From the IMG/VR virus record IMGVR_UViG_3300046007_009697, positions 1 to 46,059 of that record: a stretch of DNA of 46,059 nt. One strand, given 5' to 3'. Below, piece by piece: positions 1-3,877 of this stretch. Each line of letters opens with the position of its first letter. Within the stretch, counting starts at the first letter, position 1. The DNA is from a virus. The position numbers and the translations under genes were made by a program. The notes below the pieces were generated by a model. That model saw only the letters and a program-made list of their open reading frames with translations, searched no databases and was not told the DNA's origin.

Positions 1-616
1 CTAGGATCGCAAACTGTGCGTTATCTGCAAGTGAGCTTCGTACTGCCTTCACTGCATGTGAAGCAGTATCTGCATATACGGAATGATTTGAGTTGTTTGC
101 CGAATCTGCATGAAGTGCATGGTTTGATTCAACTGCATGTGATGCCTTTACTGCTGTATCTGCAAATCCTGATCTACGTGCATATGTTGCAGTATCTGAC
201 CAAGTAGCACTTGTAGCACGTGTTGCGTAATCAGCCTTATCAGATAGATATGCGCGAAGTGAATACGATGCATATGGTACATACTGGAGCTTAACGCGCT
301 CAAATGGCTGTCCATTGATTGTTACGTACAAGAAAAGATTTGACTCGTACTTAATAAGACTGTCAACTGATACACCGCGAAGAAGCGTAGCACAGATGCC
401 ACCATCAACTGACATCATTTGGTTTTCAGAATACCAAAGTGGATAGTTCTTATCATTAAACGCAGTTTTCAAATCCAAGTCTGGTCCTGCAAGATAAAAT
501 GACCCACGAACTGAATCTGCACCAGTGTTTACGTATCCCTGCCAGTTCAAATCAATTTGTTGTGCAAATACAGTTGTAGCAAAAAAGAGGGAAAGAAATC
601 CCAAAAATACCTTCAT
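1..616 (-). CDS. Exported fibre-like protein with Ala/Asp/Thr-rich repeats (3' end outside window)
   Basis: Partial gene; the frame stays open to the window edge (205 codons visible). It starts at an ATG preceded by AGGAG six bases upstream. The first 20 residues form a clear Sec signal peptide (MKVFLGFLSLFFATTVFAQQ). Residues ~20-115 are a globular region with no motif I recognise. From ~120 on the chain is low-complexity, with recurring units such as YADTASHA, FADTAVKA and LHADSA, a pattern common in phage tail-fibre shafts and in secreted surface proteins of Bacteroidota-like bacteria. A signal peptide is unexpected for a virion fibre, so a surface-exposed protein captured from the host is at least as likely. 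It lies 37 bases downstream of the T9SS-signal protein in the same orientation. Function unknown; the identification rests on composition only. Confidence 0.8.
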   Translation of the reverse strand, partial: MKVFLGFLSLFFATTVFAQQIDLNWQGYVNTGADSVRGSFYLAGPDLDLKTAFNDKNYPLWYSENQMMSVDGGICATLLRGVSVDSLIKYESNLFLYVTINGQPFERVKLQYVPYASYSLRAYLSDKADYATRATSATWSDTATYARRSGFADTAVKASHAVESNHALHADSANNSNHSVYADTASHAVKAVRSSLADNAQFAIL

Positions 617-653: not shown

Positions 654-1094
654 TTAACGATAAATTACTAATCTTTGATTTTCTACTTTACCATCCATCG
701 TCTTAACTTGAATTGCGTAGATTCCAGTTGCAAGATCATTTACAGATGAAGTATTACCATCGAATGATTTAACAAAATTTCCACGTGAATCAAAAATTGA
801 TACAGTTGAAATTAATGATTGAGATTCAACTGTAATTTGCGTTGATGCGGGATTTGGATAAATCTTAGAAAACGGGATGAGCGGTGTAAAATCCGTCACA
901 CCAACTGGTACCTGTTTAGGAAGCCAAAATCCCTGCCAAAGACGATTTGGATTTCCCTTTGAATATGAAACAAAATTTTGACCAACTGTAAAATTCTTAC
1001 CGCCCCCGGAAGAAATAACAGTTCTAGCAGTTTGTGCAACTGCGCTTGCTGAACTAATTGCGATTAAGATCGCAAATAAAAGAGCTGTTCTCAT
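654..1094 (-). CDS. Small secreted protein with type IX secretion C-terminal sorting domain
   Basis: 146 residues. The N-terminus is a Sec signal peptide ending around SASAVAQ. The middle holds an ISSGGG...FTVGQ...GFWLP pattern that I recognise from short secreted proteins of Bacteroidota/Ignavibacteria-type bacteria. The last ~75 residues match a T9SS type A sorting domain: KIYPNPASTQITVES, then a beta-rich stretch with VSIFDSRGNFVKSF and a terminal GIYAIQVKT...RLVIYR. In bacteria this domain directs outer-membrane translocation and is cleaved by the sortase PorU. Very little remains as mature passenger (~50 residues), so this may be a surface tag or decoy rather than an enzyme. The ATG has an AGGAG six bases upstream, and candidate promoter repeats lie at 1131-1163. 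Presence in a phage genome implies a T9SS-bearing host. Confidence 0.88.
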   Translation of the reverse strand: MRTALLFAILIAISSASAVAQTARTVISSGGGKNFTVGQNFVSYSKGNPNRLWQGFWLPKQVPVGVTDFTPLIPFSKIYPNPASTQITVESQSLISTVSIFDSRGNFVKSFDGNTSSVNDLATGIYAIQVKTMDGKVENQRLVIYR

Positions 1095-1130
1095 AGAACT
1101 CCTTAAATTTTAAAAAACATTGATGTGATT

Positions 1131-1164: not shown

Positions 1165-1860
1165 TTATTTATATTTTTGAAAAAATTTTAGTTTAGTAGC
1201 CTTTTCTATAACACGTATTGGAGTTAGAAATGCTTGCCAATCCTTATCACGTATACCAGTTATATTTGGCATTATTACTCCAAATTTTTTAAATTTACCG
1301 TTTTTATACTTTACTAAAAAAACTTTAAAACAAAATTTTGGAATTAAATACTTGTTGTTTAATCTACTAAAAGGTTCATCAAAAATCGGGCCAGAAATTA
1401 CCCACATCTCATATGTAGAATCTTTACAAACTTTTTCAGCCCATCTTTCTAATTTTAACCAAGGACCTCGATTCAAATCTGGTGTTTGTGGTATAACATT
1501 ACTCAATACAAATGTTTGACGATTTAATTCACTATTTGTTGTACGTTCTTCGGAACGAACTAAATGACCTCGATCATAGCCAGAATTTTCATAGTCATTA
1601 TTAGTTGGAAGAGTTACAGATGAATCTATTAATGAATCTTTAAAGAACTCTTTATCCCACCGAGGAACTCCACCGAAATCATCATTTCCTAGACGGTAGA
1701 TTACCCAATCTGCAAATCCAGTTTTTAGGTTCATAGAATAAATAAACCCTGGTCTTGATAAGATCAAATTTCCAGCAGGTACTCCGTATTTATCGTGTGA
1801 TCCACGTTGTGCAAATGCTACATTTAAAACAGCAAAAAATATAATGATATATATTTGCAT
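1165..1860 (-). CDS. Secreted DNA/RNA non-specific endonuclease (NUC family)
   Basis: 231 residues. The ATG at 1860 is chosen over an in-frame TTG one codon upstream because GGAG lies five bases before it. A Sec signal peptide (MQIYIIIFFAVLNVAFAQ) is followed by a Serratia-type nuclease core. Visible motifs are DRGHL at residues 96-100 (catalytic His99), FVLSNVIPQ around 117-125 with the metal-binding Asn121, and LNRGPWLKLE shortly after. These are the hallmarks of the beta-beta-alpha-metal Endonuclease_NS family, which cuts DNA and RNA without sequence specificity using Mg2+. The export signal puts it in the periplasm or outside the cell, so it is unlikely to degrade the host chromosome. It could cut incoming DNA, extracellular DNA or biofilm matrix. 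It ends 70 bases before the T9SS-signal gene and begins 12 bases after the lipoprotein gene. Confidence 0.9.
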   Translation of the reverse strand: MQIYIIIFFAVLNVAFAQRGSHDKYGVPAGNLILSRPGFIYSMNLKTGFADWVIYRLGNDDFGGVPRWDKEFFKDSLIDSSVTLPTNNDYENSGYDRGHLVRSEERTTNSELNRQTFVLSNVIPQTPDLNRGPWLKLERWAEKVCKDSTYEMWVISGPIFDEPFSRLNNKYLIPKFCFKVFLVKYKNGKFKKFGVIMPNITGIRDKDWQAFLTPIRVIEKATKLKFFQKYK

Positions 1861-1872
1861 CAAATCTCCAAC

Positions 1873-2460
1873 TTAACGTTCTACAAAATTTATTTTTATT
1901 GAATCAATGTGTATTACGGGTGATCTATTTTTATTATCCCGCATGACGTAATCATACATGTAAACTCTAATATACACAGATTTTTTAATAAAACCATATT
2001 TTATTAAATCGGATATCGTTAGATCTGTGAATATATTATTAACATACGCATATGAACGATTAATTCCAAAAATTGTTTCAAACTCGCCATCATTATCGAT
2101 TGAAGTTTTATTTATAATTGGAATTTTTACAACTGGAAAGTCATAGTCATATAGAGTACTATCTGGGTTCCAATAGACTTCATTAACATGATTTGCATAC
2201 AAGATTGAATCGCAATACCAATTTACCTTAACGTATCCTGTAAAATCAGAAAATGCATATATTTTTTTATAAAAAGAGTACGCATTTTTTGGGTAGCTAA
2301 AATTATATTCGTTAGTATCCACCCATTCAAACCATGTGCCAAATGAAGAATCACGGGTAACTTTTATGGTATTTTTATATATAGAATAATCAAATGGTTC
2401 GATTGTTGGGTCTGTTACTGTACATCCAATCAATAAGCACAAAACTAACATTTTTTTCAT
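1873..2460 (-). CDS. Putative lipoprotein of unknown function
   Basis: 195 residues. The first 13 residues (MKKMLVLCLLIGC) form a lipoprotein signal with lipobox LIGC, so Cys13 would be lipidated after cleavage by signal peptidase II. The remainder is rich in Tyr, Asp and Asn, has a predicted beta-rich pattern and no motif I recognise. An AAAGGAAC ribosome site precedes the ATG. It is the first of four leftward genes for exported proteins and is transcribed away from the plus-strand fibre gene. The 97-base region between them carries two AATAACAAACTAT-like repeats that may be its promoter. Phage lipoproteins sometimes block superinfection at the envelope; that role is only an inference from location. 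Confidence 0.75.
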   Translation of the reverse strand: MKKMLVLCLLIGCTVTDPTIEPFDYSIYKNTIKVTRDSSFGTWFEWVDTNEYNFSYPKNAYSFYKKIYAFSDFTGYVKVNWYCDSILYANHVNEVYWNPDSTLYDYDFPVVKIPIINKTSIDNDGEFETIFGINRSYAYVNNIFTDLTISDLIKYGFIKKSVYIRVYMYDYVMRDNKNRSPVIHIDSIKINFVER

Positions 2461-2518: not shown

Positions 2519-2557
2519 TTATTTACATAATATACTTTTTTTTACTTGGAGGATGAA

Positions 2558-3877
2558 ATGAGAATACTTAGTAATGTAATAATTACAGGTTCGTTGACAA
2601 ATACACGATTTACTGCAATGGCACCTGTATCGTTTAGTATTATAAGCGGAAGCGGCTCATTTACAACTGCATCGGTTGGTGTATTTGTTGATGAAAACTT
2701 AGACTTTAGATTAGCACATGAAAATTGGTTAGACGGTCCTTCTATCTTCCCAGGTAAAAATAAATTATCAGGAAGCGCGGACGATACTGGTAGTTTCTGT
2801 AGCTCCTCGTTATCATTGTTTAACTGTGTTGTATCAAAATCAATAGTAGGAAGTGGTAGTTGGGATACTGGCTGGAATTTGGGAGCCGGTACATCATCAT
2901 ATACTGCTAGTTATACGTCATCATACAGTGGGTCACTCTATACTGGTTCTATAACGGGATCAAGAACAGTTTATCATTATGCAGATCAAAACACGGGAAG
3001 TAGTGCATGTTGGTTTGGTGCTGTTGGTTCTCTTACATCCGGTGGTGAGCAGACTGGGATATGGGATGCATTCGGAATTGGTGGATCTGGTAATAACGAT
3101 AGGTATGCTGGAATTTATGAATCGATACCGAGTCCCCAAGGGGATTGTGATCCTAAATTTTTAGACTCTGCGGCTGCCTATCAAATTGCATATAGAAAAA
3201 TGCAAAAATGGGCTTCATTGTTATGTGAATGCTTAGGTAATTTAGAGTATGTTGATGTTAATTTTGGATTACTATATCACTGCAATTTCCCAGATGGAAA
3301 TCAAAATAATAATAAAGTCTTAACTAAGACATGGAAGTTTAGGGTAAGAAAAGCAGGAAATGGTAAGTGTATTTTAGAATTGAAATCATGGCCAGGATAT
3401 AAATCAGACGGCGGAATTGTAAATAGAGAAAGTGGCGATGTAACTACTATGGTATTTACAGACCAAGGAAATTACACGGTAACACCAAAAACAGTAAATT
3501 ATTTAAAAATACCATCATTTAATTCATCCGCAGATGATTATTACGGATTATCTACAACAATAAATGCCATAAACCAAGGGGGATTGCTATATTTCAATGA
3601 ATCTGATTCGAACTTGTATCTATACAATGGTGCATCTTGGAACGCTCTTGCTGGTGGTCTTAGTAAGTATACCGAGGCAGTTGGAAACGATTCAGCTACA
3701 TCATTTGTAATTACACACAGCAAGAATACTAGAGATATTGTTGTTACAGTCAGAGAAACAGCTGCTCCATATGAAACTGTGTATCCAACCATAACGATGA
3801 CATCAACAAATACCATTACAGTTGATTTTTCACCAACTGTTCCAACATCAAATCAGTATACAGTTGTAATAGTTTAA
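2558..3877 (+). CDS. Tail-fibre/appendage-like structural protein
   Basis: 439 residues from the ATG at 2558, which has GGAGG five bases upstream; an in-frame TTG twelve bases earlier lacks that spacing. There is no signal peptide. Residues ~1-150 are rich in Ser, Gly, Thr and Tyr (SGSGS, SSYTASYTSSYSGS), as in phage appendage proteins. Residues ~195-290 form a more compact region with several Cys. The last ~70 residues form a beta-rich module (GNDSATSFVITH...TRDIVVTVRE...YTVVIV) that I have seen at the C-terminus of many phage tail and receptor-binding proteins. A short LYFNESDSNLYLYNGASW segment before it resembles the surface-sampling repeats of such fibres. It is the only plus-strand gene here and ends at a strong terminator. 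A structural role is probable; receptor binding is inference. Confidence 0.7.
   Translation: MRILSNVIITGSLTNTRFTAMAPVSFSIISGSGSFTTASVGVFVDENLDFRLAHENWLDGPSIFPGKNKLSGSADDTGSFCSSSLSLFNCVVSKSIVGSGSWDTGWNLGAGTSSYTASYTSSYSGSLYTGSITGSRTVYHYADQNTGSSACWFGAVGSLTSGGEQTGIWDAFGIGGSGNNDRYAGIYESIPSPQGDCDPKFLDSAAAYQIAYRKMQKWASLLCECLGNLEYVDVNFGLLYHCNFPDGNQNNNKVLTKTWKFRVRKAGNGKCILELKSWPGYKSDGGIVNRESGDVTTMVFTDQGNYTVTPKTVNYLKIPSFNSSADDYYGLSTTINAINQGGLLYFNESDSNLYLYNGASWNALAGGLSKYTEAVGNDSATSFVITHSKNTRDIVVTVRETAAPYETVYPTITMTSTNTITVDFSPTVPTSNQYTVVIV

Follow-up and report, generated by a model that had tools for sequence, protein, structure and literature searches.

Exported-protein genes at the left end of the contig

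The window, meaning the whole stretch of DNA analysed (46,059 nucleotides), is a 46-kb IMG/VR virus contig with no end repeats. At its left end, four genes for exported proteins form one run (2-616, 654-1094, 1165-1860 and 1873-2460), separated by 86 bp from an opposite-strand virion-type gene (2546-3877). The minus-strand open reading frame at 654-1094 was found exactly as it had been described in an earlier sequence-only reading, and its product of 146 amino acids is the subject of this analysis. The relevant features are as follows.

2..616, minus strand: exported protein with ADTA-type repeats, truncated by the contig end (signal peptide heuristic, sequence)
654..1094, minus strand: 146-aa protein in which a signal peptide and a short passenger precede the T9SS type A sorting domain (TIGR04183, PF18962, AlphaFold, Foldseek)
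663..863, minus strand: T9SS type A C-terminal sorting domain, residues 78-144 (TIGR04183 and PF18962 above cut-off; RemA/RemZ CTD fold match)
870..1034, minus strand: passenger, about residues 21-75 (ISSGGG..TVGQ..WQGFWLP), with no detectable homologue or confident predicted structure
1035..1094, minus strand: Sec signal peptide, residues 1-20, putative cleavage between AVA and Q (sequence and hydropathy heuristic only)
1099..1104, minus strand: Shine-Dalgarno-like AAGGAG (sequence)
1165..1860, minus strand: exported DNA/RNA non-specific endonuclease with signal peptide (PF01223, phrog_14168)
1873..2460, minus strand: putative lipoprotein with LLIGC lipobox (sequence; no family match)
2546..3877, plus strand: virion-type protein, 443 aa, matching head-decoration and tail-fibre proteins over its C-terminal 70-80 residues
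36010..38529, minus strand: T4-type DNA polymerase, the marker for the phage clade (phrog_262, E 2e-190)

Proteins that are exported by Sec and carry a T9SS C-terminal domain (CTD) are passed by SprA/PorV through the outer membrane, with PorU removing the CTD. The 146-aa gene has the parts of such a protein in order. AAGGAG lies upstream of its ATG at a distance of 4 bases, and the N-terminal stretch MRTALLFAILIAISSASAVA, ending before Q, is a Sec signal peptide by the hydropathy heuristic with which all signal peptides in the contig were called; the putative AVA-Q site was placed by sequence. The mature part, put at some 50 residues by the sequence-only reading, is correctly sized, with ~55 residues at about positions 21-75. 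Taken alone, this passenger gave 0 matches to Pfam or NCBIfam models and 0 among Bacteroidota plasmids, and relatives of the 146-aa protein were found neither in the viral contigs nor in the genome contigs searched. The passenger may resemble bacterial 'GGG..GQ..GFW' segments, a likeness that has been kept out of the evidence.

Profile and fold of the sorting domain

The sorting domain forms the extreme C-terminus, residues 78-144 of 146. It is matched there by TIGR04183 (E 2.9e-10, 40 bits, cut-off 23) and, over the same residues, by PF18962 (E 1.9e-11, 44.5 bits, cut-off 27), this being the only sorting-domain match in the 46-kb record. The two profiles agree on the type A signal that had been recognised from its motifs. 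AlphaFold places seven beta strands at 76-144, with pLDDT means of 80-97 in 10-residue blocks over 81-146, and leaves residues 1-75 without predicted structure; the resulting beta-sandwich is a modelled structure, not a solved one. Translocon-bound CTDs of RemZ and RemA are ranked 2nd and 4th by Foldseek for the predicted domain (8gl8_D and 8gl6_D; TM 0.71 and 0.75, normalised by target length), rank 1 being a Bacteroides DUF3244 protein at 16.9 A rmsd. A profile made from the CTDs of the window and of its relatives also reached solved T9SS CTDs, including that of gingipain, at E 8e-9. The sorting signal at 654-1094 is real and far exceeds chance.

Phage origin of the contig

The contig carries a T4-type DNA polymerase, a ribonucleotide reductase and a DnaB helicase, all phage replication genes, and is a T4-like phage fragment; the phage probably belongs to those of Bacteroidota. 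From 3929 to 29729 it holds a stretch of glycosyltransferase, methyltransferase and sugar-modifying genes that is unusually long for a phage. Relatives of the 2546-3877 protein and of a 1010-aa glycosyltransferase were absent from the viral contigs searched.

The left 2.5 kb could in principle be misassembled bacterial DNA and the 146-aa gene a host T9SS protein. Of the 57 minus-strand ORFs, only the four genes of the left-end run have strong signal peptides, and their contiguity at one contig end, as host DNA would look, counts against reading the protein as a phage-encoded T9SS client. So does the position of the gene near that end, no second contig covering 654-1094 having been found: two contigs (L002 and L003) have a polymerase 100% identical to that of the window and neither extends to this end, no other viral contig holds an exact copy of it, and the nuclease at 1165-1860 has no relatives in the viral contigs or the genome contigs searched. 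The composition of 1-2460 (GC, tetranucleotide) is nevertheless not outlying, with a tetranucleotide rank of 18/107 from lowest, and since it is in range and a virion-type gene adjoins the run, a contig end derived from the host is unlikely. Nor is a foreign origin needed, because T9SS cargo recurs in relatives of this phage, in the cultured phage immuto and in huge phages (below). Misassembly is on balance improbable.

Sorting domains in related and unrelated phages

Relatives were retrieved by polymerase as 80 viral contigs, in 50 of which TIGR04183 was scored. It exceeded the cut-off in 11 of the 50. Ten of the contigs are longer than 100 kb, and 7 of these are positive; four of the seven (G033, G034, G035 and G037) are near-duplicates, leaving about four lineages. 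The cargo of these relatives is of three kinds: a protein of ~640 aa with a cohesin domain, one of 518 aa and one of 985 aa that contains GCTD..NY repeats. Scanning with a strict YPNP DNA pattern picked out 6 contigs, of which 4 were CTDs by eye, and the pattern is too strict to give a frequency; alignments of the CTD only were too variable to support pattern scans. The cultured relative closest by polymerase is Microcystis phage Mel-JY01 (PP395634.1, L108; 54% polymerase), in which a scan for the T9SS domain found none; this, together with a passenger that lacks a homologue, counts against the client reading. Mel-JY01 has much of the gene content common to the clade, yet its stated host is a cyanobacterium.

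The size of these cargo proteins bears on a further proposal of the sequence-only reading, that the 146-aa protein may occupy PorU as a decoy; as considered here, such a decoy would occupy PorU or the translocon and block T9SS export by the host. Its tiny passenger would suit that role, and any CTD competes in principle; the sequence, however, shows no departure from an ordinary client, and the relatives carry passengers in proteins of 518-985 aa that a decoy would not need, which leaves the proposal with no evidence of its own and makes it very improbable indeed.

Searching phage databases found the sorting domain in a cultured, complete phage among others, namely Flavobacterium phage immuto (MW353176), at 47.1 bits for TIGR04183 and 36.7 bits for PF18962 (cut-off 27). 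Immuto carries the ~640-aa cargo family, annotated as two genes, 14 and 15, whose separation may be genuine or due to a frameshift; both genes begin with a signal-peptide-like stretch (L156, 11598-13422). In two huge phages of 634 and 642 kb (accessions LR756502 and LR745206), proteins of 199 and 186 aa combine a signal peptide, a short passenger and a sorting domain, and their genes lie at a common locus adjoining a DnaJ-like gene. LR745206 has a second, weaker sorting domain (24.5 bits) in a 136-aa ORF; the coordinates for these huge-phage genes are L170 1647-2207, L171 1614-2213 and L172 1833-2243. Small phage T9SS clients are therefore not confined to the 46-kb contig. Their retention at a common locus also speaks against regarding the 146-aa protein as a relic, in the sense of a T9SS protein of host origin whose passenger has been lost and of whose activities only secretion remains: a short passenger with neither homologue nor confident structure is what a relic would show, but the reading frame is intact, the signal peptide, the CTD and a ribosome-binding site are all present, and we consider this explanation unlikely.

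A cargo cassette near endolysin genes

The ~640-aa cohesin cargo family was found at 46 viral-contig loci. In 41 of them the cargo gene is followed, at near-fixed spacing, by genes for a 130-aa membrane-type protein (hol130) and a lipoprotein (lipo); in the remaining five the contig stops within or soon after the cargo gene. A signal-peptide protein also occurs at near-fixed spacing in the cassettes of L095-L100, L110-L155 and L156. An endolysin-type gene lies at most 8.5 kb from the ~640-aa cargo at 36 of the 46 loci, and in 30 the two share a strand. Of 49 cargo-related records, 16 have an Endonuclease_NS gene, which in most cases is 15-27 kb away from the cargo, and 45 have a sorting domain above cut-off, a count that is not a frequency, as most records were picked for carrying cargo. 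The model of a 633-aa cargo was poor (pLDDT 51).

The 985-aa cargo of G033 occupies the position that the 642-aa cargo holds in G010, in both cases directly behind a matching set of upstream genes and an amidase endolysin. Judged from this gene order, seen on comparing L096 (4924-8237) with L103 (5562-9450), one slot with two unrelated cargos is a case of cargo exchange.

The 46-kb contig was considered as a holder of the cohesin-cargo cassette and rejected, with 0 matches for any cassette gene; its mini cargo is tied to the cassette by clade and sorting domain only. No literature describing an endolysin-linked T9SS cassette was found, in a search that was thin on subscription journals. The cargo cassette conserved among T4-like Bacteroidota phages, a cultured one included, is a more interesting result than the 146-aa gene. 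It is possible, as a tentative generalisation, that T4-like Bacteroidota phages keep an exchangeable slot near the endolysin for T9SS cargo, delivery of which would regularly contribute to the last stage of infection, whether by lysis, by breaching the outer membrane or by modifying the surface, the 146-aa mini cargo being one form.

Proposed function of the 146-aa protein

A sorting domain with its predicted fold in a phage neighbourhood, recurring in related and unrelated phages, points to a phage gene whose product is a T9SS type A client that is exported in infection and alters the outside of the infected cell, a reading to which we give a probability of roughly 0.65. Most likely the phage employs the surface-export machinery of its host to send out a small product. 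We infer that the protein would be made during infection of a T9SS-bearing host and exported by Sec, after which its C-terminal beta-sandwich would be recognised by the host's T9SS translocon and the protein carried across the outer membrane. There the CTD would either be cut off or serve as an anchor, and a ~55-residue peptide would end up on the surface of the infected cell or outside it. There the short passenger may act with the exported EndoG-type nuclease, the lipoprotein and the repeat protein to change the cell's outside, for example in countering superinfection or competing DNA. Among the conceivable purposes, excluding superinfecting phages or attacking DNA outside the cell comes first, and is doubtful at best.

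By tagging proteins of their own for export across the host outer membrane, phages would steer the surface of the infected cell, and cultured immuto makes such tagging directly testable. For uncultured phages, T9SS tags would provide a sequence marker of T9SS-bearing hosts.

Comparison with known systems

The sequence-only reading was right to see a type A sorting signal and to place it in a phage, and erred in supposing few or no phage examples, given two published reports (PMC7468147; PMC6949934), dozens of viral contigs, immuto and the two huge phages. The 2020 Cryophage paper described a Bacteroidetes phage with three genes for T9SS type A cargo, its authors proposing hijacking of the host system, superinfection exclusion or competition (PMC7468147). 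Phage-encoded type A sorting domains are common to that Bacteroidetes phage and the 146-aa gene; Cryophage, however, is circular and 76 kb in size, and its cargo consists of an endoglucanase, a GH39 protein and a PA14 protein (PMC7468147), whereas the present gene has a small passenger and belongs to a T4-like phage. The 2019 crAss-BACON paper reported proteins with T9SS domains from a single cluster of phages, BACON cluster 2, which thereby resembles the phage of the 146-aa gene and differs in that its BACON proteins adjoin the head module (PMC6949934).

Immuto shares with the 46-kb contig a sorting domain above cut-off and has an Endonuclease_NS gene two genes upstream of the cargo, but its passenger is of cohesin type and sits in a cargo/hol130/lipo cassette that the contig lacks. 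The proteins of LR756502 and LR745206 likewise join a small passenger to a T9SS CTD in a phage, with passengers unrelated by eye and phages exceeding 600 kb. With established T9SS type A clients (the CTDs of RemA, RemZ and gingipain RgpB) the 146-aa protein has in common the signal peptide, the C-terminal YPNP...GIY domain and the beta-sandwich fold; unlike them, it is phage-encoded and has a very small passenger. We judge the 146-aa protein to be, most probably, an authentic T9SS client encoded by a phage, and a new example of a class that was already on record.
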